From NCBI GenBank assembly GCA_012729815.1, contig JAAYCJ010000247.1, positions 1 to 33,950 on the forward strand: a DNA stretch of 33,950 bases. Direction: 5' to 3'. A model generated the notes under the pieces. It did no database searches. It worked only from the letters and a program-made list of their open reading frames with translations, and was not told the origin of the DNA. Source of the stretch: Phycisphaerae bacterium. Its GTDB lineage: Bacteria; Planctomycetota; Phycisphaerae; JAAYCJ01. This document shows, in pieces, positions 1-15,402 of the stretch (positions are counted from its first letter, which is position 1; each line of letters starts with the position of its first letter). The translations under genes were made by a program, and so were the position numbers.

Positions 1-2930
1 AGGCGGCCGCGATCGGCGCGGGCGCAGGTGCGGGTGTTGTCCGCCCACTGGCCGACGATCGCGTAGACGTCACGCGGCCATTCGTCGCCGAAGTTCGTTT
101 GCCAGCGCGGCTGGTCCAATTCGATCACGTTCGTCTGCAGAGACGAGTCGTGCATGCCGTCCGGCCATGTGCCCTTGGTCCGCGAGAGCCGCGGCGGCGA
201 TGCGGCGGCGACCGCCGTCGCGTCGCCCCAGAGGTACGGGTTGATGTAGTTCTGGCCGGTGCCCGACCAGGTCTCCTGCCATCGGCGGCCGTCGGCGGCC
301 TCGGTGCCGATGCCGAGTTGGATGTCGAATCCGAACCGATCGCCTACCGCCGCCGGCTGTGTTCCGAAGAACGCCAGCGGGATCTTCGCCTCCAGGTCGT
401 AGCCCCCTTCCGCGTGCGTGGCGTAGCGGCACTCGGCCCCGGCGATCGTCGGATCGGTCCCGGCCAGGATGTTGGCCACCTGGCCCGTCGACCCGTCGAT
501 GCCCGGCGCGATGCCGACGTGGAAATCGCACTCGCGGTAGAAGCCGATCGGCCGCCCGTCCGGCTCCGGCGTGAAGTACAGCTCGATGCAGTCGCCCGCC
601 CACATGTTGGCGCCGCCCTGGCGGTTCATGCCCGGCACGCTGCCGCGGACTTCGGCCATGACGTAGAGGAACTCGCCGGCGAAGGCGGCGCGGACGTCGG
701 CTTCGAACCCCTGCGAGGGGTTGGCCATCCGGATCGCCTCGCCCTGCCACTCGTCGATCCGCCCGTCCACTTGCGGTGCCTCATCGAGCACCGCGATCGG
801 GTAGTGCTTGCGCTGGATCGCCGCGTCGAAGACCTCGCCGGTGAGGCCCGCGAGGAACGGCAGTTCCTGTTTGGCGGTGAAGGCCGCGAATCCGACCGGG
901 ACCTTTACGTATTGCACCGAACCGTCCGCCGTCAGTTCGTGGCGGCCCTGTTCGATCGGCGTCGGCGCGCCAAACACATCCAACAGCGTCGCGTCGGACG
1001 GCAGCACCACGGTCAGCTTCCGCTGGTCTTCCGTCGTCCAGAACGCCAGCGTCGTCGCGTTCTCGTCGCCGAACACCAGCGCCGCCAGATTGCGGCCCGC
1101 GTCAAGCCGACCGCGATACGGCAGGTCGTTGACCGCCTCAGCCGTCGTGCAGTACGCGGCAAAGCTCGGCTTGGGCGTATAGCTGCCGCGCATCAGGCCG
1201 AACCGTCCGTCCACCTGTCCCCAGAACCACACGTCGTCCAAACGGAACACGCTGATCCGCGACAGGCCGCCCGCCAATTGCAGCAGAGCCGCCCGCACGA
1301 TCATCTGCGCCTGCTGCAACTCGCTGCAGCCGGAGATCGTCGCGCCGGTGGTGTAGCCGAACTCGGTGCTCCAGATTGCCTTGTCCTTCCCGCCGTTGGC
1401 GTCGAGCCACTGCCGCGCCGAGAGGCAGTGCTCCAGCAGCATGCCCTCTTCCGGCGTGTTCCACCGCTTGCCGACCGACCACGGATACGGGTGCAGGATC
1501 AGGAACTCATACGACTCGCTTCCGCCGCAGCGGTTGACGCCCGCCACCAGTTCCAGGTTGCTGCCGACGCCCACCTTCGCGTTGGGATTGGCCCGCTTGA
1601 TGCCGCGGTGCGCCGCGATCAGCGAGTTGGTGAAGTTCTCGATCGTCCAGTGCGGCGTCGCGCCGAGCCGGCCTTCCGGCTCGTTCCAGAACTCAAAATG
1701 CTCGACGAAGTTATCGCCCAGGCCGGCCACCGTCTCGAACGCCCGCTCGAACGCCTCGAGGTCCACCGGCAGGTCGTCGTTCGTGCCCGGCGGCGCGGCG
1801 TTGGTCTTGTACGTGACGTTGTACACGTAGCCCAGCGGCATGATCCCGTTGGACGCGTACCGGTCCACCTGCCCGGCAATGGCGTTGGGATCGATCTCCG
1901 AGACGTCGCTGCGGCAGTTGAACGGACTGCCCCGCGTCCAGGTCAGTCCCATCACCTTACCCAGCTCCGGCGGGCAACTGCCGGCGGCGAAGGGACTGCC
2001 GCCAAATGACCGCTCCGACGGCACGGTCATCACCGCGGCCCCTTGCAGATCGTGCAGCACGTTCGAAGCGTCGGTCTTCGAGACGCTGCGGATCACCAGT
2101 TCGTAGTAGCCGCACGTTTCGGCTTGGTATTCGACCGTCGCCCCAAACGCCGCTTCGCCGGTGGTCACCGTTCGCGCGTAGCCGTCGATGATCTTCCACT
2201 CGAATCGCTCGAACGAACCGTCCTGCGGCTGGCCGACTGTCCAGACGATCGGCTCGCCCGGCCGGTACACGCCCCACTGGTTGCCCGGCTGGATCAGCGT
2301 CCGGTGCTCGCTGCGTTTGCTGTTCTGGTAATATTCCAGCGAGTCGGCCGCCGGCACGTAGACCGCCGGCGTCTGCTCGCCTTCGACCAGTTGTACGTCG
2401 GCGATGAATAACAATCCGCCGCCCTCGCCGCGCAATCGCGGGCGAACCGCCGTCACACCGTCCGGCGCGTCGAAGCCGGCGGTCAGCGTGGTCCATCCGG
2501 TCGGATCGAATCGCACCGCGGCCAGGACCTTCTCACCCGCCATCACCTCCAGCCGGGCCACTCCCGCGCCGGTCAGGTCCACGTCCTGCTCGGGCTTGTT
2601 CTCCGGCCGGAAGTTGGCGATGTCCGGCGTGTAGCCGCGCTCGGCCTTGGCCGCCGACGCCACCGACGCACTGAGCGTGTAGCGCCGCTTCGGCTGAACC
2701 GCCGTCTCGCCGAACCGCAGCTCCCACCGCCCCTTTTCCGCCAGCTCGACCTTCAGGCACGGGCCGTATTCGCGCAGAACGCGGATTACGCCCGCCTCCG
2801 GCGAGCCGATCACGAACTCCACGTTCTCGGGAACCCGCCCGGACGTGAGGGCATCGGTATCCAGGGAACCAGCCGACACCGGTGGCGTCAGGGCGCAGAG
2901 CAACACGCCCATCAGTCTCAGATGCATCAT
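1..2930 (-). CDS. Secreted clan GH-A glycoside hydrolase with C-terminal CBM9-like domain (3' end outside window)
   Basis: A reading frame of 976 codons runs without a stop off the left edge, so the C-terminus is missing. The start is the first of two tandem ATGs at 2930, behind AGGAGT. The first 20 residues (MMHLRLMGVLLCALTPPVSA) look like a Sec signal peptide. The catalytic core has the clan GH-A signatures: WNEP with the likely acid/base E417, and STEFGY with the likely nucleophile E523, about 106 residues apart. From about residue 710 to 900 there is a CBM9-like beta-sandwich (VDGRIDEW, later GDCIELYF). The layout matches the hydrolase at 15403-18288, so the two are probable paralogues. 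It is the last gene seen of the LacI-led unit, 14 bases after the upstream prepilin gene. Family (GH39-like or other) and substrate are not determined. Confidence 0.85.
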   Translation of the reverse strand, partial: MMHLRLMGVLLCALTPPVSAGSLDTDALTSGRVPENVEFVIGSPEAGVIRVLREYGPCLKVELAEKGRWELRFGETAVQPKRRYTLSASVASAAKAERGYTPDIANFRPENKPEQDVDLTGAGVARLEVMAGEKVLAAVRFDPTGWTTLTAGFDAPDGVTAVRPRLRGEGGGLLFIADVQLVEGEQTPAVYVPAADSLEYYQNSKRSEHRTLIQPGNQWGVYRPGEPIVWTVGQPQDGSFERFEWKIIDGYARTVTTGEAAFGATVEYQAETCGYYELVIRSVSKTDASNVLHDLQGAAVMTVPSERSFGGSPFAAGSCPPELGKVMGLTWTRGSPFNCRSDVSEIDPNAIAGQVDRYASNGIMPLGYVYNVTYKTNAAPPGTNDDLPVDLEAFERAFETVAGLGDNFVEHFEFWNEPEGRLGATPHWTIENFTNSLIAAHRGIKRANPNAKVGVGSNLELVAGVNRCGGSESYEFLILHPYPWSVGKRWNTPEEGMLLEHCLSARQWLDANGGKDKAIWSTEFGYTTGATISGCSELQQAQMIVRAALLQLAGGLSRISVFRLDDVWFWGQVDGRFGLMRGSYTPKPSFAAYCTTAEAVNDLPYRGRLDAGRNLAALVFGDENATTLAFWTTEDQRKLTVVLPSDATLLDVFGAPTPIEQGRHELTADGSVQYVKVPVGFAAFTAKQELPFLAGLTGEVFDAAIQRKHYPIAVLDEAPQVDGRIDEWQGEAIRMANPSQGFEADVRAAFAGEFLYVMAEVRGSVPGMNRQGGANMWAGDCIELYFTPEPDGRPIGFYRECDFHVGIAPGIDGSTGQVANILAGTDPTIAGAECRYATHAEGGYDLEAKIPLAFFGTQPAAVGDRFGFDIQLGIGTEAADGRRWQETWSGTGQNYINPYLWGDATAVAAASPPRLSRTKGTWPDGMHDSSLQTNVIELDQPRWQTNFGDEWPRDVYAIVGQWADNTRTCARADRGR

Positions 2931-2944
2931 CCTGCTTACTCCTG

Positions 2945-3742
2945 TTACGGAAGGTCGTGTCGCGGAGGGAACATGGCGCGGGTCGTCTCTTTCAGTTGCA
3001 CTACCCGCACATGCCCGTCGAGGAACAGGCAATTCGAGCCGCCGGAATGGCGCGTCGAGAAGAACTCATTGAGGCTGCCCTTGCTATCTTCGTAGAACAC
3101 CGCTCCCCAGATCGCTCCCACGGTGCCCAGATTCGACCCGCTCCCGACGGCCAGGTTCGTGCTGTCGTAAGCCGACACCGTATTGGCCAGATCGGTGAAC
3201 ATCGACAAGCGCGAAAAGGGCGGGTAGGGGTAGTAGAACGCGCCCATCACCCCGTGCGGCGTGCCGTAGGCATTGACGTACCAGCCGAGACTGACTTCCC
3301 CAGCCCCGATCGATGGGCAGTGGAAGATGGTCGACGCCTCTCCCGGAACGGCGGGGCGGATACCCTTGAACAGCGACGTCGGATCGCCTGAACTCAACCC
3401 CCACCCGTTATACACGGTTCCGATCGCCGAATCGACCAGCCCCGCCTGGATCAGCTTGAACGACCAATGGTATATATACCCGTTCAGGTCGCAGTTGGGC
3501 AGCGTGTCGTTGAACATGTCCAGATAGTAGCCGATCGCCATACCCGTCTGCCGCAGGTTCGCTCCGCAGTAGACCGTCCGGGCTGCCGCTCGCGCCGACT
3601 GCAGCGCCGGCAGCAGGATCGACACCAGCACCGCGATGATCGCCACGACCACCAGCAGCTCGATCAGCGTAAACGCCGGTTTGGCCGGTCGCCGCGCCGA
3701 GGTCCTGGTCCCGTTCCGCATTTCGTGTGGTTCGTTTCGCAT
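2945..3742 (-). CDS. Prepilin-type protein with H-X9-DG motif
   Basis: 265 residues. A basic leader is followed by a class III (type IV pilin-like) signal, [18 protein letters not shown], with F24 as the first mature residue. The residue before the cut is Ala, not the usual Gly. The globular part ends with the H-X9-DG motif (HSGG...FLDG, near residue 240) of the prepilin-associated family abundant in Planctomycetota and Lentisphaerota. Such proteins are expected to be processed by a prepilin peptidase and held at the inner membrane or assembled into a pseudopilus; none of that machinery is in the window. The start at 3742 has GAGG upstream, inside the end of the preceding hydrolase gene, 5 bases away. 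It sits between two hydrolase genes. Its specific role is unknown. Confidence 0.88.
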
Positions 3743-3747
3743 GGTCG

Positions 3748-6144
3748 TTACCTCTTTGCCTGTTGGCCGTCGCCGGCGAACGCCCGCGAGTACCGTCCCG
3801 CATGGGCTTCAATCGATGCGCCGGATACGTACACCGGCGCGCCGGTCACTTCAATAGTCACCGTACCGCTTTCGTCCGGCGATACGTTCGTCTGGCGACC
3901 GATGCAGTCGGTGATGGTCACCGGGCCCGACGCGCTCAACTCGACCGGCGTGCGGATCGTCCAATACTCCTCCCATGCCGGCCGGTGCGTCGTCCGCACG
4001 TGGGCCGGTTCGTGACGCAGGTAGCCTTCCTCGCGGCTCCAGAGCAACGCGAACCGCCCGCGGCGGCCCTCGAACACCAAGCCGCGCAGGTGCTCGTTGT
4101 CGAGCTTGGCGTCGCCGACGAATTTGGCCCCGTCGAGCATCCACGCCGCGGTCTGATGGGCCCAGAGGATCGCCTTGGGCGTCCAGTCGCGGCGGATCAA
4201 GCCGAAGTAGAACTCCCGCTCCCACGGCTCACCCGTCTCGGCGACCGTCTTGATCTCCTCGTGCCGGTCGAAATCGTCGAGGCAGTAGTACATGAGCCCG
4301 CGCACGTCCGCCGCCACCGCCAACCCGCACATCAGGGTGATGTCCTCGGCGCCCACCCGCTCGTTGTTCGAGCAACTGCTGTTCGGCGCAGCCGGGGCGT
4401 AGTACTCGCTCATCCACAGTTCCTTATCGCCGTATCGCCGCAGCGCCTCGTGAATCCGCTGCAGCGTCACCACGTAGCTCCAGAAGGTCTGGCCGTCGTC
4501 GAAGTCGGGCGAACGCGGGCAGCCGGCGGCGTGAAACACCAATCGCTCGAAGGAGTCCCATCCGCCCGCCGCGTGGACCTTGCCCATGTACGTCAGGTCG
4601 CCGTTGGCGACCACGCAGCCGCCCAGCGGCATGCCCGGCGCCATCTCGTCGCGAAGGCGGCTCAACGGGATCAGCCAGTCCTTGGTGTACTTTTCCGCCA
4701 GGACGCCTTTCTCCTCGCCGCCGTGGAGGTTCAGCTCGTTGGAAAACTCGAACGACTCGTCGTGCTGATTCAGCGTCACCTGCAGGTTGCCCCGCAGCCA
4801 GGTCTCACGGTTGGCCGCCTCGTGCATCCACGACGGCCGATCGGCGAAGTATTCTTCCGCCTCCGGACCGTAAACGCTGTTGTGGTACCAGGTGTGAAAC
4901 CCCATCTGGTGGGCCAACTCGCGGTCCTCGCCCATCCGCAGCCAGCGCACGCCGATCCGCGCCATCAGCTCCAGGAGCTGCTTCTGGCTGCGGAACGAGG
5001 TGTGCGCTCCGACGTGGCCGCGGTACGCGGCGATGCCGAACCGCGACTCCTTGCCGTCGAGGAACTCCCGCTCGGGCATCACGCCCAGGCAGATCCGCTC
5101 GTACGCCGTCGCGCGGTTGTGCCGCGCGGTGACGTCCAGATAGACCGGGCCGGCCTGTTCGCATTGGACGGTCAGCGGAAACCGCCACGGCTCGCACGGG
5201 CCAAGCATGCGGCTCTCACGGCCCTGCGCGACCGTCGTGCCGTCAAAGTCGCGGGCAACAAACTCCACGTCGACCCGCAGCGGACGGTCGAAGAGGTTGA
5301 CCGCGCAAACGTCGAGGGTCATCGGCTCGCCAACCGTCTTCCACAGGTAGAACGGTTCGGGACTGCTCACGTCGAGCATGATCCGGTCGCCGCCCGCCGC
5401 CGCCACGCCCAGCGGCATGGCCGATGGCGAATCGGAGACGACCAGCGCAGCGTACGCTTGAAACTGGTCGGTCATCCACGGCCGCTGGACCTTGCGGACG
5501 TGCAGGTTGAGCTTCCCGTCGTGGACCAGCGCGTCGAACCCGCGGTCGCTGGCGGCCACCAGCGTCGAGTCGCCGACCCGGTAACTCTGGGCCATGCCCG
5601 CCGTCAGTTGGTACGGATCGCCGCCGTAAGGATGGTGGAGCCAGCGCGCCGGTTTGATCACGTCGGCCGCTTCGCCGCCCTCTGCCAACGCGAACTCCAG
5701 CGTGGCCGGCCCTTCGGCGAGCGTTACGCCGTCGGCGGCATCGATCTCGAACGACACGCGAACCGCCTCGGGCATCAGCACCCAGACCGACTGGACGTTC
5801 GCCGCCCCTTCGTACCGCACGCGGACCGTCGGCCAGCCCGGATGGGCGGAATCGATGGACGTGGCCACGTTGGCCACGTGAACCTTCCGCTCGTCCGGGA
5901 TCAACTGCGGACCGGTCTCGATCGTCACCGGTCCCGCCGTCGTCAGATTCGCCTGCGGAAACTCAAACCGGCCGAGCGTGCACAGCAGCGTCTCGCCCCC
6001 GCCCTTCCGCGAAAACAGCTCGACCTTGCCGTCCTGATGGATCGCCAAAGAGTAGCCGGAGGTCTCGAACCGCTGCGCCTCCTGCGCAACGGCAGTCAGA
6101 CTACTCAGGATGATCGTAAGAATCACTGCGTGTGCTCTCATCAT
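3748..6144 (-). CDS. Secreted putative clan GH-A glycoside hydrolase
   Basis: 798 residues. Two ATGs open the frame behind AAAGGTGA. The first 20 residues ([20 protein letters not shown]) form a signal peptide. About 360 residues of beta-rich sequence precede a probable TIM barrel. The barrel begins near residue 366 ([13 protein letters not shown]). It has FSNELN with likely acid/base E470 and LWMSEYY with likely nucleophile E580, 110 residues apart, as expected for the ends of strands 4 and 7 in clan GH-A. A short beta domain follows to the C-terminus. I do not recognise a specific GH family. It lies 19 bases after one prepilin gene and 5 bases before another, in the LacI-led unit, so it is probably induced by the sugar sensed by that regulator. 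Confidence 0.82.
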
Positions 6145-6163: not shown

Positions 6164-6850
6164 TCAGATACCCGTCAGCGGGTTGGTTGCCGGCCATGTC
6201 TCATTGACCAGATAGTATCGTGCGTGCCCGTCCGGCAGCAGGATGTTCCATCCATCGCCGTGATGCTCGTACTTCTCGCAGGACATCATCCAGGTATTGG
6301 AGATATCGAGTACACCCGACGGCGTCTTCGCCAATTCCGGAATGAGTTCATTGAAGATATAGGAGAAACCAAGCTGCTCTGGGCGATACTCCGGACAATC
6401 CCAGACACTGCGGTATTTCGGCTGGCTCGGGATCCTCGCCAGCGTCCACCAGTCGCCTATGTCCTCCGTGTAACGGGCGACCTTGCCCAGGTACGGCCAG
6501 TACCAGACAAAGGCCTGCATGTGAGTCTTCCACGCGATAAACTGCAACCACCGGCTGTCATCGTTGTACGGATAGAGGCTGCCTAAGTAAGCGGGAAAAA
6601 GCATGTCAACCGAAAACAACGGGTACTGCCGAATCCCCGGCTGAGGGAACATGCCGAGATAGTCGGTCTGGTAGTTGACGTCGGCCACCCCGATCTGCCG
6701 AAGCTGAGCGGCGCACACCATCTTCCTGGCGCCCGCGCGGGCGCGGGTCAGAGCCGGCAGCAGCATCGCCACCAGCACCGCAATGATCGCCACCACCACC
6801 AGAAGCTCGATCAACGTAAAGCCCTTCGACTTCAAGCCCGCCGTCTTCAT
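6164..6850 (-). CDS. Prepilin-type protein with H-X9-DG motif
   Basis: 228 residues. A short basic leader ([10 protein letters not shown]) precedes [17 protein letters not shown], with a canonical Gly before F11, so cleavage by a prepilin peptidase is expected. The C-terminal region has H-X9-DG (HGDGW...LPDG, near residue 207). The ATG overlaps the stop codon of the LacI-type gene (ATGA), and its ribosome-binding site AGGAG lies in the last codons of that gene, so translation is probably coupled. It is followed after 19 bases by a secreted hydrolase gene. The role is unknown; possibilities are a pseudopilin involved in hydrolase export or display, or a surface sugar-binding protein. Confidence 0.88.
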
Positions 6851-7881
6851 AGCTCCTGCCTCCTCGCCTGCGTGCAGCTATCGCGCCAGACCAGCCGGCC
6901 GGGAACCCGCTCCTGGACCGGCGCGTCGCTGTGCCCTTCGATCTGTTCCTGGAGCAGTTCAACCCCCATTTTGGTCAGCTCCTCGACGCCGCCGTCCACA
7001 CTCGTCAGGGCCGGCTCCAACTCGTCGCACAGGCTGACATTGTCATGGCCCACCAGGCTCATGTCTTCCGGAACCCGATACCCCTGCCGCATCAACTCGT
7101 TCATCCCGCCGATGGCCATCCAGTCGTTGGTGAACACGATCGCAGTCGGCGGCGGCTCGCGTCGCAGCAACTCCCTGACCCCCTCGCGCCCAGCGGCGAC
7201 TCCGCCGCCGAACCCCTCGACCACCAGCGTGTCCTCCGCGTCCAGCCCGCAATCGGCCAGCACCCGCTGATACGCCTCCAACCGAAGCCCGACGCTCGGG
7301 TACTCGCGCCGACTCGCGACAAAACCGATCGACCAGTGCCCCAACTCCACAAGCCGGCAGACCGCCTCGGATGTTCCCGGCACAAAATCCGTAATCACCG
7401 ACGTGCATCCGGTCCGGCGCACCGTATCGTTAAGCACCACCACCGGAATCCCCTCCTCGCGCACCCGCTGGCACAACTCCACCGATGGATGACCCGCCAA
7501 AATCACCCCGTCCACCCGATTCTCCCGCAGCACCGATGGGTACGCCGCTGCGCCGTGCCGCAAAACGAACTCGACGTGAACGTGGTTCTGAAATTCGCTG
7601 GACGCCTGCTCGACGTGCAGGGTCACAAGCTGCTGGTACAGGTCATCGGCGACGCCTTCTTTCTGCGAGGCGATTATAAGTGCTATTGCATTTGCACGTC
7701 TGCGACGCAAGGGACGTGGCCGGTAGCCAAGCCGGTCGGCCAGATCGCGGATCTCCGCCGCCCGTTCGGAACTGATCCGCGGATCGCCGGCCAGGGCTCG
7801 TGAAACGGTGCTGACCGCGACGTTCATCCGCCGGGCCATGGTCCGGAGGCTGACCTGCTGAGTGCCGCTGAATTCATCCAT
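6847..7881 (-). CDS. LacI-family transcriptional regulator
   Basis: 344 residues from the ATG at 7881. An N-terminal LacI helix-turn-helix ([20 protein letters not shown], about residues 10-29) and hinge region lead into a periplasmic-binding-protein-like sensor with the usual family patterns ([40 protein letters not shown]). A GTG 18 codons upstream (7935) is in frame, but it lies inside a palindromic operator and at about the predicted transcription start, so the ATG is preferred. The gene heads a five-gene unit of alternating prepilin and hydrolase genes and overlaps the next gene by 4 bases. Two palindromes in its own promoter suggest autorepression and control of the whole unit. The inducer is unknown, presumably a glycan-derived sugar. 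Confidence 0.92.
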
Positions 7882-7920
7882 TTTACTGGTCCACCGGCTT
7901 TGCGATTGGAGAGGCGATTT

Positions 7921-7935
7921 GTGCAACTGTTGCAC
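7921..7935. promoter_or_regulatory. Operator O1 (palindrome) of the LacI-led operon
   Basis: GTGCAAC-T-GTTGCAC is a perfect 15-base palindrome placed immediately after the predicted transcription start. The arms TGCAA/TTGCA resemble known LacI-family half-sites, though the 3-base centre lacks the usual CG. Binding here would block initiation or clearance. Confidence 0.7.
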
Positions 7936-7943
7936 TGGCCCCC

Positions 7944-7972
7944 ATCGTAATGCAACAGTTGCACAAAGTCAA
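7944..7972 (-). promoter_or_regulatory. Sigma70-type promoter of the LacI-led operon
   Basis: On the minus strand, TTGACT (7972-7967) and TACGAT (7949-7944) are separated by exactly 17 bases. Transcription would start near 7937 and give a leader of about 55 bases before the ATG at 7881. The box match, the spacing and the overlapping palindromes agree with each other. This is read from sequence only. Confidence 0.72.
7951..7963. promoter_or_regulatory. Operator O2 (palindrome) within the promoter spacer
   Basis: TGCAAC-A-GTTGCA lies between the -35 and -10 boxes. Its centre is 29 bases from that of O1. Including flanks, the two operators are a 17-base perfect inverted repeat of each other (7918-7934 and 7951-7967), so two regulator dimers could bind cooperatively. 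Confidence 0.7.
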
Positions 7973-8011
7973 GCCCCTTGTCGGGCGGGGGCAGGGCATG
8001 GTCCGGAATGG

Positions 8012-11000
8012 TCAGGATCCGACCTTAACCGCCAGTTCGGCCCGGCCGGTGTCCAAGCCGGTCAAGCCGATCGAGAGGATCCGGCCGCCGTGTTCGACGG
8101 TGCGGGTTTCACCTTTGCGGATGCCCAGACCATCGGCGATCAGGCGGCCGTGACGGTAGACCGACAGTTGGACGGTAAAGGTGCCGAAGGCTTCGATTCG
8201 GGTGGGAATGATGGTGTAGGGGCCAAAGGGCAGTTCCTCATCGAGGGCGACCCAGCGGGATGTGTGGGTCCTGGCGGCGCTGATGCCGATCAGCAGCGGT
8301 ATTGGACGTTCATTTAAGCTTATGAAGTCGATGGTCTGGATCGGTTGGTCGGGACGGGGGTTTTCCCAATTGAAGACGTAAGCCCCAATGCTCGAACACG
8401 ATTCGTTGCCTCCGGTCCAGCCGATGCGGGCTTCGGGCACTTCCTGTGGCTTCCACCAGTCGGCGACGTTGCGTCCGGTGACCAAGTCGATGGATTCGGT
8501 TTGGCCGTCGGCGTAGTGAACGATCAGGCGGGCGTAATTGACGCCGACGTCACCCCAGGCGGTGGCATGGAGGATGTGGAGCATCTGGGCTTTGCATTCG
8601 ACTGCAATACCTTCGACTTTTTCGGGATAGAGGTCGTAGTGTCGGCTGGCGGGAGGAACGGCTTGGCTTTTCAGGCCGATGCATCCGCGGCCGTCGTTGG
8701 CGTTCGGGTCGGTGACGGCGAAGGGGATTCCGGCGAAGAAGTTGGTTCCGACGGGGAACTGCTCGGCGTCGTTGATGGGGCCCTGGTCGGACCAGCCGCC
8801 GGTTTCGTCGGTGTACTTAAAGCCCAGGTTCGCATAGGGCGCGAGGTCCACGAGGTGGAAGTCTTCGATTTGGGCGCGGGTTTCGACCTGGCGATCGGTC
8901 AGGGCGACGCCGGCGTCGGTCAGCAGCGAAGCGAGGAGTCGTGCGACTTGGGGCGAGCGCGCGGCTTCGGCGTCGAGGGGAAGCTGGATCACGATGTATC
9001 GTCCGCGGCCGCTGCTTTTTTGCAGGACGGCGGCGGCGATGGTCTTGTGGTGTTGGCGTGCGAAGTGGTCGTCCTGCTCGGCTTGGAACATCCGTTGGCC
9101 GGCTTGGACTGCCTGCGGGTCGGCATCGTCGCGCCAGATGGGAGCGTAGTGGGAGACGAAGGAGAAGGCGGTGAAGCGTTCCTGGAGGAGGACGAGGGGT
9201 TTCCAGTCGGCGGACCATTGGCCAACGAGGGTCGTGCAGAGCCAGTCGGTCCAGCCGAGGAAGTCGAGGGGATTGAAGCCCCAGACCGCTTGGTCGTCGG
9301 TTTCCATGAAGACCATGGCACGCCGGCCTTCGAGCAGGGGCATGGTGGCGATGGTCAGGTCGTGGCCGAAGAGCGGTTCGAACGACGGCTGGGGAAAGAC
9401 AAGGACCTGGCCGCCCTGGGCGACGAAGCGGTCGATCGCGTCCCTGCAGCGGGCGAAGTCGGGCCGCTGCATCGCGTTGGCGCCGATCACGAGAACGCGA
9501 TCGGCGGGAATATCGTCGCCGGGCTGATATTCGCCGAATTTGGCTCCGAAGTGGGCGAGGATATTCTCGGTGGCGCCGCTGCCCTTGACCAGCAGGACGT
9601 TGTTGGTCGGGTGACGCTGCGGCGGTGAGGCGATGGCGTTGAGGAGGTTGTGGATCAGTCGCGTGGCGGTTGGGTCGTCGCCGTATCGTTTGGAGCAGCG
9701 GAGTTGGCATCGGATGAGGGAGCCTCGGCCGATGAACTGCCGGAGGAGCGGCGTGCGTTTGACGTCGCAGTCGGCGAGGATGAGGAAGTTTCCGCTGGTG
9801 GGTTTGGCGAACGCGCCGTCGGTGACGTAGTTGTCGTCACCCTGCCAGCCGGTGAGTTCGGGACCGTCGATGCCGTCGAAGATCGGGTGGCCGGGCGCCT
9901 GGACGTAGGCCTGGGTGTCGGAGCTGCCTTGATTGTCCTGTTCGAAGACGAGGGCGTGTCCGCCGGCGCGGCAGAATTCGGTCAGCAGCGGCTGTGCGGC
10001 GGCGTCGAGGCTGCGATAGCCGACGACCAGCGGGCGGTTGGAGTCGAGCTTCGCAGGGTCACTGCATTCGTCGAACTGCACGCCCGCCTTTTTGAGGATC
10101 GCCGTTGTGACGCCGTTGCGGTCGTAGAGTTGGAAGGGTGCGTCGAAAACCGGCGGTTTGAAGTATGAATCGGGGTAGAGCGTCACGTCCTGATCGCGGC
10201 GGGCGATGGTTTCCTTCCCTTCGGTCAGGGCGAGGCGGAAGATCACGTCGGTGTTGGCCTCGACGGTCGGTGCGGCCAGTTTCACGGTGAACGTCGCCAC
10301 ATCGGTTTTGGGGATTGTGACGGGGATTTCGGCATGGGCCAGTTCGCGGTCGCCGGCGAGGAAGGCGGCGCGGAGGCGTGCTATGATTTCGCGCGGGTGG
10401 TCGTTGATGACGACGATTGTTTTGTCGATGGATTGGCCGCTTCGATAGGCCTTGGCGGCGTCCGGGGCCCAGACGGCGAGGGGAGCGAAGGCGCGGGTGA
10501 AGGCATCGAAGACGGGCGTGGGCGACCAGGGCGGGGCGTCGGGGTCCCAGCCGGGATTGACTCGCGGGCGCATGGCGTAAGTGGGTTTGACGTATGGTCC
10601 TTCCCAACTCTCGTGCTCGATCCGCGGGGTGGCGGTGCGGGTGGCGTGGGAGGCGAGGGGCATGTTGAACGTGATGTAGTTGGCGAATCCGAGCATTCCG
10701 GCGATCTTGTCTCGTCGCCAGCCGAGGGAGAGTTGTTCGTTGTAGTCGGCACCGGCGCGGAGGGCGGATTTCGGATCGCGGAAGGCGGCTTCGCCGCAGT
10801 ATTTTTCGAAGAACTCCTGGAGGCAGGGGACGAACCAGTATTCGCCGACGAGGATGGGCTTGTCGCGTTCGAAGACGGCGGGCCAGGAGCGGCGGAGGTT
10901 GCGGAAGAAGTCGCGTCCGGTGGGCAGGTCGACCACGTAGACGGGGTAGTGGACGTTCATGATTTCGGAATGGCCGAAGAGGTCGTAGCTGCCGTGGAAG

Positions 11001-12418
11001 GTGACGGGGCGGGTGGGGTCGGAGTCCTTGATGCATCGGTCGAGCTGCGTGAACATGTCGAACCACTGGCGCGGCTGCGGGTCGGCGGGCGGCTGGCGGA
11101 GGGTTCCTTCCCAGTAGATATAGCTGAACCGCTCGTTGTTGGCGTTCCAGATCACGATCGACGGATGGTTGCGGTCTCGGAGCATGGCCTCTCGGAAGAA
11201 GGTCTCGGTCCGCTGAAGAGTCTGTTCCGTGGGGTCGCCGGCGATGCTGTCGCTGTCGAGGCCGGCGATGACGAGAAAGCCCATTTCGTCGCAGAGGCGG
11301 TAGAGCAGGGGGATGGGTATGCCCTTGACGCCGTGCCAGCGGATGGTATTGGCGTTCATGGCCTTGAGGGCCTGGAGTTGGAGTCGGGCGTGTTGGGGGG
11401 TCAGTTGCTCGGGATGGATGTTGTCGACGGGATTGTCCCAACAGCCCAGCAGCGTGACCTTCTCGCCGTTGAGGATGAAGCGGTCGCGTTCGATTCGGAA
11501 TTCGCGGAAGCCGAAGCGGGTGCGTTTTTCGTCGACGGGCCGGCCGTCCCGTTGGATCACGGTATGCAAGGTGTAGAGATGCGGCGACTCGGGCGTCCAG
11601 AGTTTGGGGTCCGGCCACTGGTCGCCGGCGGCGAGCGTGGCGGCGGCGTGCGGTTCGAGGCGTGCGGTTCCGCCGTCGAATTCCTTGACGACGGCGCCGT
11701 CGGGATCGGTCACGCGGTGGACCACCCGCACGTCGGCTGCGAGGTCGGAGGCGTTGGTCGCGCACAGGTCGACGTCGATGCGTTTGGTGCTGACGGACGT
11801 GCGGACGAAGAGGTTTTTCGAATGGACTTGCGGGACGGCGAAGAGGTAGACGTCCTGCCAGATTCCTCGCAGGGGATGTATGGACTCGGGGGCGTTGACG
11901 TCTCGGCCGTAGCGTGTGGCGTCCTGGACGGCGACGGCCAGGACATTGGTCTGGCCGAAATGCACGTGGTCGGTCACGTCGAGGGTGATGGGCAGGAAGG
12001 CGAATGTTTCGGGCGTATCGAGGGCGTCGCCGTTGACGTAGACGCGGCACCAGTAGGCGACGGCGCCGAGGTGGAGGAAGACACGTTTGTCCTTCCACTC
12101 CGCCGGTACGGTGAAGTCGCGTCGGAACCAGGCCTTGTGAGCGGCGGCCCATTCGGGCGGGAATTCGAAGTAGGCGGTTTTTTCCCAGAAGCTGGGGACC
12201 TTGATGGTCTGCCAGGGCTCGTCAGGGACGGCTCTGAAATCGGCGTCGTCGGGCAATGGAGCAAAGTCCCAGAGGCCGTTGAGGCAGATTCGCGGTCGGA
12301 AGGAGGCGTCGTCGGCGGTTTCGGGGTCGAAGTGCATGTAGCGGTCGTCCGGGTCGGCGGCTGCGAGCGAACCCAGTACCACGATTGTCAGGGAAGCGCA
12401 CCATCCAACTTGGTTCAT
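8012..12418 (-). CDS. Secreted glycoside hydrolase family 2 enzyme, multidomain
   Basis: 1468 residues, longer than typical GH2 enzymes (about 600-1050). ATG at 12418 follows AAGGACAT. A signal peptide covers about residues 1-21. Residues 40-200 are the GH2 sugar-binding jelly roll (LNGLWDF, WFRRDFTVP, VYVNG, HPLRGIWQDVYL). An Ig-like domain runs to about 305, then the TIM barrel. RDRNHPSIVIWNANNE gives the acid/base E429, and KPILVGEYW gives the likely nucleophile E526. The C-terminal 900 residues hold at least two GATase1-like alpha/beta modules (AGGHALVF near 819, AQGGQVLVF near 1003) and a final beta-sandwich. Beta-galactosidase or beta-glucuronidase type activity is plausible but unproven. 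It is 29 bases after a prepilin gene in the GntR-led unit. Confidence 0.88.
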   Translation of the reverse strand: MNQVGWCASLTIVVLGSLAAADPDDRYMHFDPETADDASFRPRICLNGLWDFAPLPDDADFRAVPDEPWQTIKVPSFWEKTAYFEFPPEWAAAHKAWFRRDFTVPAEWKDKRVFLHLGAVAYWCRVYVNGDALDTPETFAFLPITLDVTDHVHFGQTNVLAVAVQDATRYGRDVNAPESIHPLRGIWQDVYLFAVPQVHSKNLFVRTSVSTKRIDVDLCATNASDLAADVRVVHRVTDPDGAVVKEFDGGTARLEPHAAATLAAGDQWPDPKLWTPESPHLYTLHTVIQRDGRPVDEKRTRFGFREFRIERDRFILNGEKVTLLGCWDNPVDNIHPEQLTPQHARLQLQALKAMNANTIRWHGVKGIPIPLLYRLCDEMGFLVIAGLDSDSIAGDPTEQTLQRTETFFREAMLRDRNHPSIVIWNANNERFSYIYWEGTLRQPPADPQPRQWFDMFTQLDRCIKDSDPTRPVTFHGSYDLFGHSEIMNVHYPVYVVDLPTGRDFFRNLRRSWPAVFERDKPILVGEYWFVPCLQEFFEKYCGEAAFRDPKSALRAGADYNEQLSLGWRRDKIAGMLGFANYITFNMPLASHATRTATPRIEHESWEGPYVKPTYAMRPRVNPGWDPDAPPWSPTPVFDAFTRAFAPLAVWAPDAAKAYRSGQSIDKTIVVINDHPREIIARLRAAFLAGDRELAHAEIPVTIPKTDVATFTVKLAAPTVEANTDVIFRLALTEGKETIARRDQDVTLYPDSYFKPPVFDAPFQLYDRNGVTTAILKKAGVQFDECSDPAKLDSNRPLVVGYRSLDAAAQPLLTEFCRAGGHALVFEQDNQGSSDTQAYVQAPGHPIFDGIDGPELTGWQGDDNYVTDGAFAKPTSGNFLILADCDVKRTPLLRQFIGRGSLIRCQLRCSKRYGDDPTATRLIHNLLNAIASPPQRHPTNNVLLVKGSGATENILAHFGAKFGEYQPGDDIPADRVLVIGANAMQRPDFARCRDAIDRFVAQGGQVLVFPQPSFEPLFGHDLTIATMPLLEGRRAMVFMETDDQAVWGFNPLDFLGWTDWLCTTLVGQWSADWKPLVLLQERFTAFSFVSHYAPIWRDDADPQAVQAGQRMFQAEQDDHFARQHHKTIAAAVLQKSSGRGRYIVIQLPLDAEAARSPQVARLLASLLTDAGVALTDRQVETRAQIEDFHLVDLAPYANLGFKYTDETGGWSDQGPINDAEQFPVGTNFFAGIPFAVTDPNANDGRGCIGLKSQAVPPASRHYDLYPEKVEGIAVECKAQMLHILHATAWGDVGVNYARLIVHYADGQTESIDLVTGRNVADWWKPQEVPEARIGWTGGNESCSSIGAYVFNWENPRPDQPIQTIDFISLNERPIPLLIGISAARTHTSRWVALDEELPFGPYTIIPTRIEAFGTFTVQLSVYRHGRLIADGLGIRKGETRTVEHGGRILSIGLTGLDTGRAELAVKVGS

Positions 12419-12447: not shown

Positions 12448-13149
12448 CTATCGCCAGTACGAATCCGGGTCGTTTACGCCGTAGAAGAACTCATTTTCGT
12501 GTGGGGGATAGTACAGGTGCCGTTCGAGTTGCTCGATCCAGCGGGCGTTTCCGTCGACGAAGAGCCAGTTGGCACCGCCGTTGTGGCGGTTCATTTCCGT
12601 CCTGACACTAAGGGAGTCCAGAACGATCCACGCATTGCAGGCGTAGGATGCGCCGTCGAAGAACAGGGGTGTTTTGTCGGGCCCGCCGACCCTATCGAGT
12701 TTCGCCGCCCGTTCGCCGCTCCAGTGCAGGTCCATGTTGTAGGCGTAACTGCGGGCGTAACCGTACATATCGACGTCCGGCCGCAAGGGGCACCTGAAGA
12801 TGAGCGGATCCTGGCGACCGCTGCCGTAGTAGAACTGAGCCGCGTCGCCGCCGCTGACATAGGGTCGCAGGGCATCGTTCCATCGCGGATGCACCTCGAC
12901 CCAGGCTCGCGTGACGCCGGAAGGGGGCAAGCAGTCGCCGTAGTCCTGGACGTAGCCCCAGACGGCCATGTGGAGTTGCTTAAGATTGGACGCGCAGATG
13001 GTCAGTTTGGCCTGGTCGCGGGCGGCGTTGAGGGCGGGCAGGAGGATGCTGACGAGGACGGCGATGATGGCGACCACGACGAGGAGTTCGATGAGGGTAA
13101 AGGCTTGGGGCCGATTTGCGATCCGCCATTTGTGACGTGACGTTTTCAT
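12448..13149 (-). CDS. Prepilin-type protein with H-X9-DG motif
   Basis: 233 residues. A basic leader ([16 protein letters not shown]) precedes [17 protein letters not shown] with F17 as the first mature residue; the residue before the cut is Ala. The H-X9-DG motif is present (HNGGA...FVDG, near residue 190). The gene starts 3 bases after the GntR-type gene and ends 29 bases before the GH2 gene, so all three are probably co-transcribed. The codons of the conserved helix mostly end in C, while the identical peptide in the other three copies is written with mostly G-ending codons, reflecting the local strand skew. No specific function is known. Confidence 0.88.
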
Positions 13150-13152
13150 GGT

Positions 13153-14235
13153 TTATCCCGTTTCACCTTCGATGACACGGCCGTAGGTTTCGTGGTATTC
13201 GATGGGTCCGGTATCGCCTTCGAGCCGGCGTTTGAGGAGTTCGGCGGCCGTTTTGGCGCGGAAGTGGTAGAGGGTGTCGACGGTGGTCAGTCGTGGGGCG
13301 GCGGCGATCAGTCCCGTGCTGCCGGTTCCCTCAGCGGAGATGACCGCCACGTCGTGGGGGACGCGGAGGGCGGCCTGGTCGAGGGCGCGGAGGACGCCGA
13401 GGGCGATCCAGTCGTGTCCGGCGAGGATGGCCCGCGGGCGTTCGGTTTTCAGGAGGTGGCGGGTGAACTGCCAGGGGTCGATGATGGGATCGGGTTTGGG
13501 GCCGTAGCTGTGGGTGTCCTGGTAGCGTCGGACGCTGCGGCCGTCGAACGAGACGCCGTGTCGAGCGAGGGTCTTGCTGAGGGCGACGAGGGTTTGCGAT
13601 TCGGGCACCTCTCCCTCTTTGGACGAGGTGACGTAGAGCACGTCGCGGTAGCCCTTGGCCAGCAGGTACTCGGCGAGTTCGACGCCCTCCTGGTAGGCGT
13701 TGGTCCGGACGGTGTCGTATCGCCGGCCGGGGATTTCGTGGCCCATGATGACGACGTGCGTGTTCGGATGAGGCAGCAACTCGGGGCGGTAGGTAAAGAG
13801 CTGCGACGGCACCGTGGCAACGATCAGGCCGGCGGGCGGATGGCGGTGGGCGTCGTCAAGGAACTGGCGATACCATTCGAGGTTGCCGTGGCCGCACTGG
13901 GTGTTGACCGACCAGGACGAGGAGGCGAAGACCTCCTGGACGGCGTAGGCGAATATCTGATGGATGAAGGGATGGCCGGCGGTGATGAAAGTCACGGTCT
14001 TGCGGAGGGCGGCTGATCGTTCGGGGGTGTCATCGGCGACGATGGTGCCGAGTCCCCGGTAGCTGCGGACGAGGCCTTCGCGTTTGAGGCGGTTGATGGC
14101 TTTGGTGACGGTGGCGATCGAGACCTGGTAGTGGTCGGAGATTTGCCGATGGGCGGGGAGTTTGGCGCCGGGCTTGAGGTCGCCGGCTATGATTTGTTTT
14201 CTGGTTTCGGTGTAGATGTCGATATATGAGGCCAC
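13153..14235 (-). CDS. GntR-family regulator with LacI-like sugar-sensor domain
   Basis: 360 residues with a GTG start at 14235 behind GGGAG. Residues 5-68 form a GntR winged helix ([19 protein letters not shown], then [19 protein letters not shown] and the wing RGLGTIV). Residues 75-350 are a periplasmic-binding-protein-like domain of LacI type ([30 protein letters not shown]). This is the AraR-type architecture, usually a sugar-responsive repressor. It heads the GntR-prepilin-GH2 unit, and its promoter carries repeated TACTG/CAGTA half-sites that are likely its own operator. It may also control the divergent prepilin-hydrolase pair at 14520-18288. The effector is unknown. Confidence 0.9.
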
Positions 14236-14253
14236 TGGCCCGCTCCCGGGTTG

Positions 14254-14284
14254 TACTGCAGTATACTGTAATATATAGCAGTAT
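14254..14284. promoter_or_regulatory. Candidate operator array for the GntR-type regulator
   Basis: Contains the perfect palindrome TACTGCAGTA (14254-14263) and a second inverted pair, ATACTG (14263-14268) and CAGTAT (14279-14284), separated by 10 AT-rich bases. The half-sites cover the predicted -10 and spacer of the GntR promoter. Assignment to this regulator is inferred from position. Confidence 0.5.
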
Positions 14285-14300
14285 TGACGGAATACCGCAA
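14272..14300 (-). promoter_or_regulatory. Candidate promoter of the GntR-led operon
   Basis: On the minus strand TTGCGG (14300-14295) and TATATA (14277-14272) are spaced by 17 bases, giving a start near 14265, about 30 bases before the GTG. Each box matches the consensus only moderately. Confidence 0.45.
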
Positions 14301-14395
14301 GAGGTTTGTTTTATTGGCTGTTTAAATATTAATGAAGCGACAGTGCTATTTGGTAGCTATACCGCGGCATGGACGCACCAAGAAGGACGCGGATG

Positions 14396-14418
14396 GAAAA
14401 GTAGAATGTCCCCTTTTC
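14396..14418. repeat. Short hairpin repeat element, copy 1
   Basis: Arms GAAAAG (14396-14401) and CTTTTC (14413-14418) flank the 11-base loop TAGAATGTCCC. A second copy at 20149-20173 has the same loop and arms one base pair longer. This copy lies between the divergent GntR and prepilin promoters. It may be a REP-like mobile element or a structured regulatory site; neither is proven. Confidence 0.6.
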
Positions 14419-14456
14419 AGGTTCGTTCAGGACGTGTGGTCCGCAGGAGAAAGGGG

Positions 14457-14486
14457 TTGACAGGGGAAGGCGGGTTCGGGTACACT
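14457..14486 (+). promoter_or_regulatory. Candidate promoter of the plus-strand prepilin-hydrolase pair
   Basis: A consensus -35 TTGACA (14457-14462) and TACACT (14481-14486) are separated by 18 bases, with the start expected near 14493, about 27 bases before the ATG at 14520. Confidence 0.6.
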
Positions 14487-14498
14487 TACACGTGTAAG
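14485..14498. promoter_or_regulatory. Palindromic operator overlapping the -10 and start region
   Basis: CTTACAC-GTGTAAG is a perfect 14-base palindrome with the central CG typical of LacI-family operators. It overlaps the end of the predicted -10 and the start site, so a bound repressor would block transcription. It does not match the half-sites upstream of the GntR gene or those upstream of the LacI gene, so a third regulator, outside the window, may act here. Confidence 0.6.
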
Positions 14499-14519
14499 CT
14501 TGATGATAGAGAGGATAGC

Positions 14520-15290
14520 ATGGTCAGAACAAGTCACGTGGACCGCCGTTTGTGGTGCTGGCGTGTGGGCATGTTGTCCGGGGAGGTTGGCCGGGCGTCC
14601 CATCGTATTGGGCATGGTTTTACCCTTATCGAACTCCTCGTGGTGGTGGCGATCATCGCGGTGCTGGTGTCCATGTTGTTGCCGGCGTTGGGTGAGGCGC
14701 GTCGGACGGCTCGGCAGACGGCATGTTTGAGTAATCTCCGGCAGCTTGGGGCGTATGGGGTGATCTATCAGAACAACTACAACGATCACATCGTGGCGGG
14801 TGTCAACAATCCGCCGGGGTGGCAGGGGTTGATGGGGATTCCGGGGTTCCAGTTGGATGAGTGGGGGGTTCAGATCGGGACGGTGGCGGACGTGCTGCAG
14901 TGCCCGGCTACGGAAAAGCAATTTTACAGCGGGACGTACGGGTACAACAGCCGCTGCGGCGGCGAGTGGGTCTATCGAGGCGAGGATTACGACAAGATTT
15001 ACCGGATCACGGAGATTTCGCGGCCGTCGGAGCGGATCATCATCGCGGACTTTAACGCGCAGTGGCCGATCATGCTGTCTTTTATGGTCTGGCCGGAGGA
15101 TCCGGGCGGTTACGTGGATTGGGACCGCCACGGAGCCCGCGACGGTATTGGGCTGCTGAGCGTGCTGTGGCTTGACGGGCGGGCGACGGCGGAGACCGGC
15201 GGGCAGTTCACCAGCCGCGGAACCGTGCCGATGTACACGTACATCGAGCCGTTCTATTACTACTGGTGGTTCTCGAAAGACAATCTCTGA
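14520..15290 (+). CDS. Prepilin-type protein (variant H-DG spacing)
   Basis: 256 residues from the ATG at 14520, which follows AGAGAGGAT. The open frame extends further upstream, but that part crosses the promoter and is not used. The leader is unusually long (33 residues) and ends in Gly before F34 of [17 protein letters not shown]. The downstream motif is not H-X9-DG: after RHGARDG the DG comes 14 residues after the His (LWLDGRA), so this copy is a variant. The C-terminus is rich in Tyr and Trp. It is followed by 112 bases without a recognisable terminator and then the plus-strand hydrolase gene, repeating the prepilin-hydrolase pairing seen on the minus strand. Confidence 0.85.
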
Positions 15291-15402
15291 TCCGCGTCGG
15301 CAGATCTCCAAGGCATTTGTGTTGCGCAGACTCCGCCACATCGCTTACCGTATGGACTTCGGCGAAGCGGATGGCGGCTGGGCTTTTGTAGAGGAGCAAA
15401 TT

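Follow-up and report, generated by a model that had tools for sequence, protein, structure and literature searches.

What does a bacterial regulator gene gain from a promoter into which two copies of the same palindrome are built, and which protein would read them? The question is raised by a locus of a Phycisphaerae bacterium, located in a 33,950-nucleotide stretch of DNA (contig JAAYCJ010000247.1, here called the window), where these palindromes precede the gene of a LacI-family regulator that is followed by the genes of a pseudopilin, a 798-residue protein, a second pseudopilin and a protein with a CBM9 domain. The region is, in our judgement, very probably the promoter-operator of a repressor of the LacI family, probably responsive to a sugar, that controls the operon formed by its own gene and these four. 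The coordinates of the features are collected in Table 1.

Table 1. Features of the regulator locus and its neighbours, in window coordinates.
Feature	Position	Strand	Basis or remarks
Protein with CBM9 domain	3..3032	-	At window edge
Second pseudopilin	2945..3742	-	Same gene run
798-aa protein	3748..6144	-	No Pfam/NCBIfam match
Pseudopilin	6164..6850	-	N_methyl and DUF1559 start; overlaps regulator stop
LacI-family regulator, 344 aa, ATG 7881	6847..7881	-	PF00356 and PF13377; alignment with relatives
Shortened hinge, residues 53-65	7687..7725	-	13 residues, against 17 in other relatives
Downstream operator (putative)	7918..7935	-	15-bp odd palindrome GTGCAACAGTTGCAC 7921-7935, core 7922-7934, CAAA flank, centre 7928
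Predicted transcription start	7937	-	Inferred, 7 nt past -10
Predicted -10 element TACGAT	7944..7949	-	Promoter scan, 17-bp spacer
Spacer operator (putative)	7951..7967	-	Core TGCAACTGTTGCA 7951-7963, TTTG flank, centre 7957; recurs at same position in relatives
Predicted -35 element TTGACT	7967..7972	-	Promoter scan, 1 found
Glycoside hydrolase family 2 (GH2) protein	8012..12418	-	Upstream neighbour, of preceding cassette
Pseudopilin of preceding cassette	12448-13149		
GntR-type regulator of preceding cassette	13153-14235		

A promoter scan of positions 7700-8200 found one sigma-70-like site only (7972..7944, minus strand), composed of TTGACT and TACGAT separated by 17 bases and agreeing with the consensus at 9 of 12 positions, and 50 shuffles of the same region gave a mean of 0.0 matches (sd 0.2). 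The promoter that a preliminary description had placed at 7918-7972 is correct in coordinates and letters. Read along the minus strand, TTGACT is followed by the 17-base spacer with TGCAACTGTTGCA, by TACGAT and by TGCAACAGTTGCA at about +4 to +16, in agreement with the claim of one palindrome in the spacer and another just past the start (predicted at 7937). Exact TGCAACNGTTGCA occurs in the window at two sites only, 7922-7934 and 7951-7963; with up to two mismatches there are 3 sites against a shuffle mean of 0.91, a number reached by 5 of 100 shuffles. Both sites overlap the regulator's own predicted promoter, one within its spacer and one past its -10 element, with their centres 29 bp apart, and both are odd palindromes with a single A/T centre, not the even, CG-centred kind that is canonical for LacI-family operators. 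With their flanks (7918-7934 and 7951-7967) they form a 100% complementary inverted repeat whose 17-nt arms are separated by 16 nt. The mirror relation that had been emphasized is thus real, but mostly automatic, because two copies of any palindrome are inverted repeats of each other, and information beyond this comes solely from the base at the centre and from the TTTG/CAAA flank. What is noteworthy is the presence of two near-identical palindromes at two spots where a repressor can block a promoter.

The protein encoded downstream belongs to the LacI family by its domains and is divergent in its hinge. It matches the LacI helix-turn-helix family (PF00356) with 27.8 bits, for a cut-off of 27, and the sugar-binding-protein-like sensor domain Peripla_BP_3 (PF13377) with 110.9 bits, and a fold search with its model retrieved structures of RbsR, CelR, CcpA, PurR and LacI. 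None of the named subfamilies (RbsR, CytR, CcpA, GalR and others) claims it, all 17 NCBIfam models listed being below their cut-off; the best score is that of the RbsR model (127.4 bits for a cut-off of 382). In an alignment of eight rows with its relatives the stretch TVSRAL (T25-L30) is invariant. The choice of the ATG at 7881 over the GTG at 7935 as start codon, made previously, is borne out by the conserved domain of the relatives, which starts near residue 10 when numbering runs from 7881, and by the position of the GTG, inside the downstream operator and 2 nt past the predicted +1. Nothing in the protein points to a tetramerisation tail, as the last invariant alignment position is followed by 9 residues before the end.

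The operators were compared with the upstream regions of related regulators. Relatives were gathered by sequence search in the same class and phylum, in a collection of genome contigs, and in the classes to which one Verrucomicrobia and one Lentisphaerae relative belong. Without the window itself, this gave 29 distinct relatives that have upstream sequence and share 35-44% identity with the window protein. This set leaves out the weaker matches L248-L250 and the C26 paralog, which has no upstream sequence; L139, L219 and L229 were dropped because their upstream letters are identical to those of L105, L141 and L140, L230 was taken as the same gene as L142, and L231 and L247 were dropped because the search pattern did not locate their helix. 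In a blind search, each possible 5-base half-site was scored by the number of upstream regions holding it as a palindrome with up to one mismatch. With a one-base centre, GCAAC-N-GTTGC was the top half-site, in 9 of 29 regions, followed by one with 4, the best of one shuffled set being 3; with a three-base centre CGCAA (9) and TGCAA (7) lead. The operator motif of the window is thus recovered without using the window. Exact YGCAANNNTTGCR is present in 10/29 relatives, 2/50 LacI paralogs of the same genome and 0/60 other LacI relatives (Fisher p 1.9e-6, ignoring shared ancestry), and within one mismatch in 15/29, 5/50 and 4/60, respectively. These controls are the 50 paralogs and the 60 of 76 other relatives with enough upstream sequence, the 76 having been drawn from the best 80 of 287 matches. 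Because relatives share ancestry and were picked by similarity, Fisher tests overstate independence; the shuffles used for palindrome enrichment, blind search and site counts keep base composition, not dinucleotides. In the remaining 14 of the 29, YGCAANNNTTGCR is absent at up to one mismatch, and in five of the 29 it is absent at up to two, a level at which 19/50 and 22/60 of the controls match. Some relatives with a short hinge, e.g., L108, L243, L244, L245, L251 and L253, have no recognisable operator.

The position of the sites recurs as well. Relative to the best-scoring promoter match, 12 of the 15 relatives with a near-exact site carry it in the spacer (L105, L233, L235, L246, L254) or centred 7-20 bp past the -10 element (L140, L142, L232, L233, L236-L239, L246), both positions being occupied in L233 and L246; in L106, L141 and L242 the scan picked another promoter. 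L109 has both positions occupied by an altered half-site, TGCATC-W-GATGCA, and its close relative L220 has the downstream copy. This footprinting by sequence comparison, with the same two positions recurring in the spacer and just past -10, supports the earlier proposal that the palindromes are operators. Palindromes are in general frequent before the LacI genes of this genome, with 46 in 51 regions (window included) against 11.9 in block shuffles; another LacI paralog, L021, has two of the even type upstream, TGCATTCGAATGCA and GTTGCATTCGAATGCAAC, 31 bp apart. Residues 17/18 of the recognition helix vary with the half-site in a suggestive way (V/L are mostly paired with AAC, I is paired with AAG and Q with ATC, and P occurs with either AAC or AAA), a pattern that was picked after seeing the data, is not clean and was not used.

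True operators may still be bound mainly by another regulator, or by two proteins of a shared regulon, and the obvious partner is the C26 paralog, 60% identical to the window regulator, with the same recognition helix, an identical 14-residue stretch and a hinge of equal length; its own promoter lies beyond the contig end. In other genomes, however, the site precedes a gene of the same group, which favours self-regulation, and we regard control mainly by, or shared with, a second regulator as improbable, if far from negligible. Repression of the regulator's own promoter by its product is, on the comparative evidence, well supported.

The same palindromes could serve a different purpose, since some members of the LacI family, such as Cra, activate transcription. 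Activation from these sites seems very unlikely, because both overlap the core promoter or the start, where a bound protein is expected to block polymerase, and one of these positions is found in the 12 of 15 site-bearing relatives mentioned above. A similarly low probability is given to the reading of the 17-bp inverted repeat as an RNA hairpin (an attenuator, a stabiliser or the terminator of the upstream GH2 gene) instead of a pair of operators. A transcript across the whole region would fold at -37.6 kcal/mol (z -5.9 against shuffles), and the GH2 gene, ending at 8012, reads towards the repeat; yet no terminator-like site was found by the scan, the predicted start leaves only one arm transcribed, whose fold is unremarkable (z -0.64), each arm is itself palindromic, and most relatives that bear the site have a single one, unable to form this hairpin. 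The hairpin or terminator was rejected on these grounds. That the palindromes are products of chance or coding bias can be practically dismissed, for even though TGCAACAGTTGCA also occurs in coding sequence and 7 of the 12 exact sites of the genome lie within long open reading frames, two exact copies stand 29 bp apart at a promoter and the motif was recovered blindly before relatives.

Autorepression by steric hindrance, exerted by two adjacent dimers and relieved by a sugar, is the most likely mechanism. In the absence of inducer, a repressor dimer would occupy TGCAAC-W-GTTGCA in the spacer between -35 and -10, and a second dimer would sit on the site at about +4 to +16, so that RNA polymerase could neither bind nor leave. 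A sugar freed from the target polysaccharide would then lower the affinity of the repressor, inducing the presumed operon. The two dimers would act side by side rather than through a loop.

If the regulator has other targets, they should carry the same site, and a genome search with TGCAAC-N-GTTGCA had been proposed to define its regulon. The search returned 12 exact sites in 5.47 Mb, against 1 for the reversed-pattern control; as a regulon marker the exact motif is not clean and yields few convincing targets, and a regulon defined by it was set aside as weak, given the share of sites within long open reading frames. When a longer pattern was searched on both strands and up to three mismatches were allowed, 42 rows resulted, and 14 for its reversed control, so only three loci are named as candidates, C89 being the best and C54 and C22 weaker. 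At C89 (11509-11521), exact TGCAACWGTTGCA immediately precedes the probable start codon of a gene for the solute-binding protein of a sugar-type ABC transporter (SBP_bac_1, 90.4 bits), which is followed, by reading of the sequence, by a permease-like protein; the site could be a second target of the window regulator or of the C26 paralog. The C54 site lies just before another LacI gene, adjoining TTGTAAACGTTTACAA, and the C22 site lies between two genes.

The odd centre of the operators raises the question of how it is read. LacI-family hinge helices bind in the minor groove, as the titles of entries 2pua and 2pue state for PurR. In a joint alignment of 159 sequences, the hinge, taken as reaching from a conserved tyrosine to the sensor domain's first strand, has 13 residues in 31/31 members of the window's group and 17 in 76/76 other relatives; of the genome's own 52 paralogs, 45 also have 17, and the remaining seven have 8, 8, 12, 12, 14, 20 and 23. 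In five of these paralogs with unusual hinges (L039, L051, L054, L056 and L058; 8-14 residues), the 200 bp before the gene hold no palindrome with 6-base halves. The hinge lies outside the 46-position Pfam model, and that of the window protein departs from the usual form: the short hinge reads mostly G-Y-R-P-R/K-P-L-R-R/S-K-R and is without the A-R-x-L stretch common in the usual one. In the AlphaFold model, residues 52-64 of the window protein are coil with no helix (pLDDT 72 for residues 51-60), and the Bacillota relative L145 has a helix at 48-55 (helix pLDDT <50). The structure alignment has 42 rows and leaves out L220 and L232 (in-frame TGA in the matched stretch) and some others.

Operator centres were compared along the same division. 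The CG-centred form, TGCAAC-CG-GTTGCA, is found within 320 bp before the LacI match in all six Bacillota relatives L143-L148 (two exact, four with one mismatch; L144-L146 are >90% identical to one another), as well as in L160 and L217, that is, in 8/76 other relatives, and in 0/31 members of the window's group. The odd form within one mismatch occurs in 0/76 other relatives, and in the window's group (31 rows, one duplicate) it is present in the window and four others. When all perfect palindromes are counted (halves of at least 6, within 200 bp, a region holding both kinds entering both counts), the short-hinge group, window included, has 8 odd and 1 even, against 11 odd and 27 even in the canonical-hinge groups (Fisher p 0.0016). 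The central base is A/T in 18/18 YGCAWNNNWTGCR sites of the short-hinge group, one duplicate locus having been dropped; L111, outside the YGCAWNNNWTGCR pattern, has the odd palindrome ACAACCGTTGT with a C centre. Of the 17 canonical-hinge regions of this genome that hold an even palindrome, 16 have CG at its centre, and nearly all of these palindromes differ from gene to gene, as expected if each regulator has its own address. The canonical-hinge paralog L020 (C54) carries an exact odd site adjoining its own even palindrome.

We infer from this that the shortened, basic, arginine-rich hinge would read a one-base A/T centre in place of the usual CG pair. Since LacI itself combines a hinge of normal length with an odd natural operator, the coupling between hinge and operator is put forward as a hypothesis. 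Taken jointly with the gene order described below, the data suggest a wider reading, which we hold tentatively and with slightly less than even confidence. Regulators from Planctomycetota, Verrucomicrobia and Lentisphaerae would form a branch of the LacI family whose hinge has been shortened by about one helical turn (4 residues), and an arginine-rich strand lying in the narrow minor groove of an A/T centre would replace the paired hinge helices at CG. The operator would have become one base pair shorter (from TGCAAC-CG-GTTGCA to TGCAAC-W-GTTGCA) with its half-site unchanged, and two such regulators of this genome would belong to a larger set of separately regulated regulator-pseudopilin cassettes leading, where inspected, into carbohydrate-active genes. 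A shortened LacI hinge was not described in the titles and abstract starts of the open-licence literature searched, among the matches listed. One half-site with two centre lengths matching two hinge lengths constitutes a natural pair, making the question of whether the hinge sets the spacing directly testable.

The regulator is followed by a pseudopilin and then by further genes, whose proteins are likely secreted. The 798-residue protein has no Pfam or NCBIfam family and a single chance-level PDB match (E 0.84); judged from its sequence, it is probably secreted and glycoside-hydrolase-like. This order is repeated across the genome, with about 66 adjacent regulator-pseudopilin pairs: a pseudopilin on the same strand comes directly after 36/54 sensor-domain matches with a LacI-type start and after 31/45 further matches (regulator C362 appearing as two matches), and none of these regulator matches is followed by a pseudopilin on the opposite strand. 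Of the 149 pseudopilin matches (150 of 179 candidates scored), 66 are thereby accounted for. A separate count on fetched loci gave 35/53 followed by a pseudopilin (window included, one truncated locus omitted), and in other genomes 8/29 relatives of the window regulator have one next to them. Two of these cassettes lie in the window, the first headed by a GntR-type regulator (12448-14235) and the second by the LacI-type regulator (6164-7881). Adjoining the former, at 14226-18288, there is a divergent plus-strand run with a pseudopilin (N_methyl 14613-14681) and a CBM9 protein that also matches GH39 weakly. The C26 paralog (1-993; L078, L221), whose contig starts inside the gene, likewise has a pseudopilin and a CBM9 protein after it. 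LacI-pseudopilin cassettes were not described among the listed matches of the open-licence literature searched (titles and abstract starts). The pairing suggests modular switching, in which parts of the surface or secretion machinery would be turned on together with each polysaccharide-related gene set.

Comparison with known systems places the locus between the familiar and the unusual. The E. coli lac repressor also has two sites for one repressor around a promoter, but the window sites are only 29 bp apart and its protein shows nothing of the tetramerisation tail. The window regulator finds some of its best matches, by sequence and by fold, in structures of CcpA, PurR, RbsR and LacI with DNA (such as 1zvv, 1pnr, 9ny8 and 1efa); its hinge, 4 residues shorter than in other relatives, differs in being modelled as coil. 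The Bacillota relatives L143-L148 have a regulator about 30% identical and the same half-site, TGCAAC, and differ in the CG centre and the 17-residue hinge. To our knowledge, regulation in this group has been little studied, and the present analysis provides a sharp operator prediction for one of its regulators. In the main text of the survey of LacI regulators by Ravcheev et al. (2014; PMC4052901), neither the word Planctomycetes nor the word Verrucomicrobia occurs. That survey gives autoregulation for 72% of the LacI regulators studied and more than one site for about 20% of the regulated operons; of its 1303 motifs 1251 are even, CG being the centre of 1173, odd ones make up only 4%, and distances between sites peak at 13, 22 and 32 bp, the 29 bp of the window not being among these reported peaks. 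The autoregulated LacI/GalR promoters treated there resemble the window in that palindromic operators lie near the point where the operon of the regulator itself starts, but their operators are mostly even and CG-centred, in contrast to the single A/T centre found here. As a promoter, therefore, the region is ordinary for the LacI family, and what is uncommon is the odd, A/T-centred operator, the group-wide shortened hinge and the pairing of regulators with pseudopilins in this genome.
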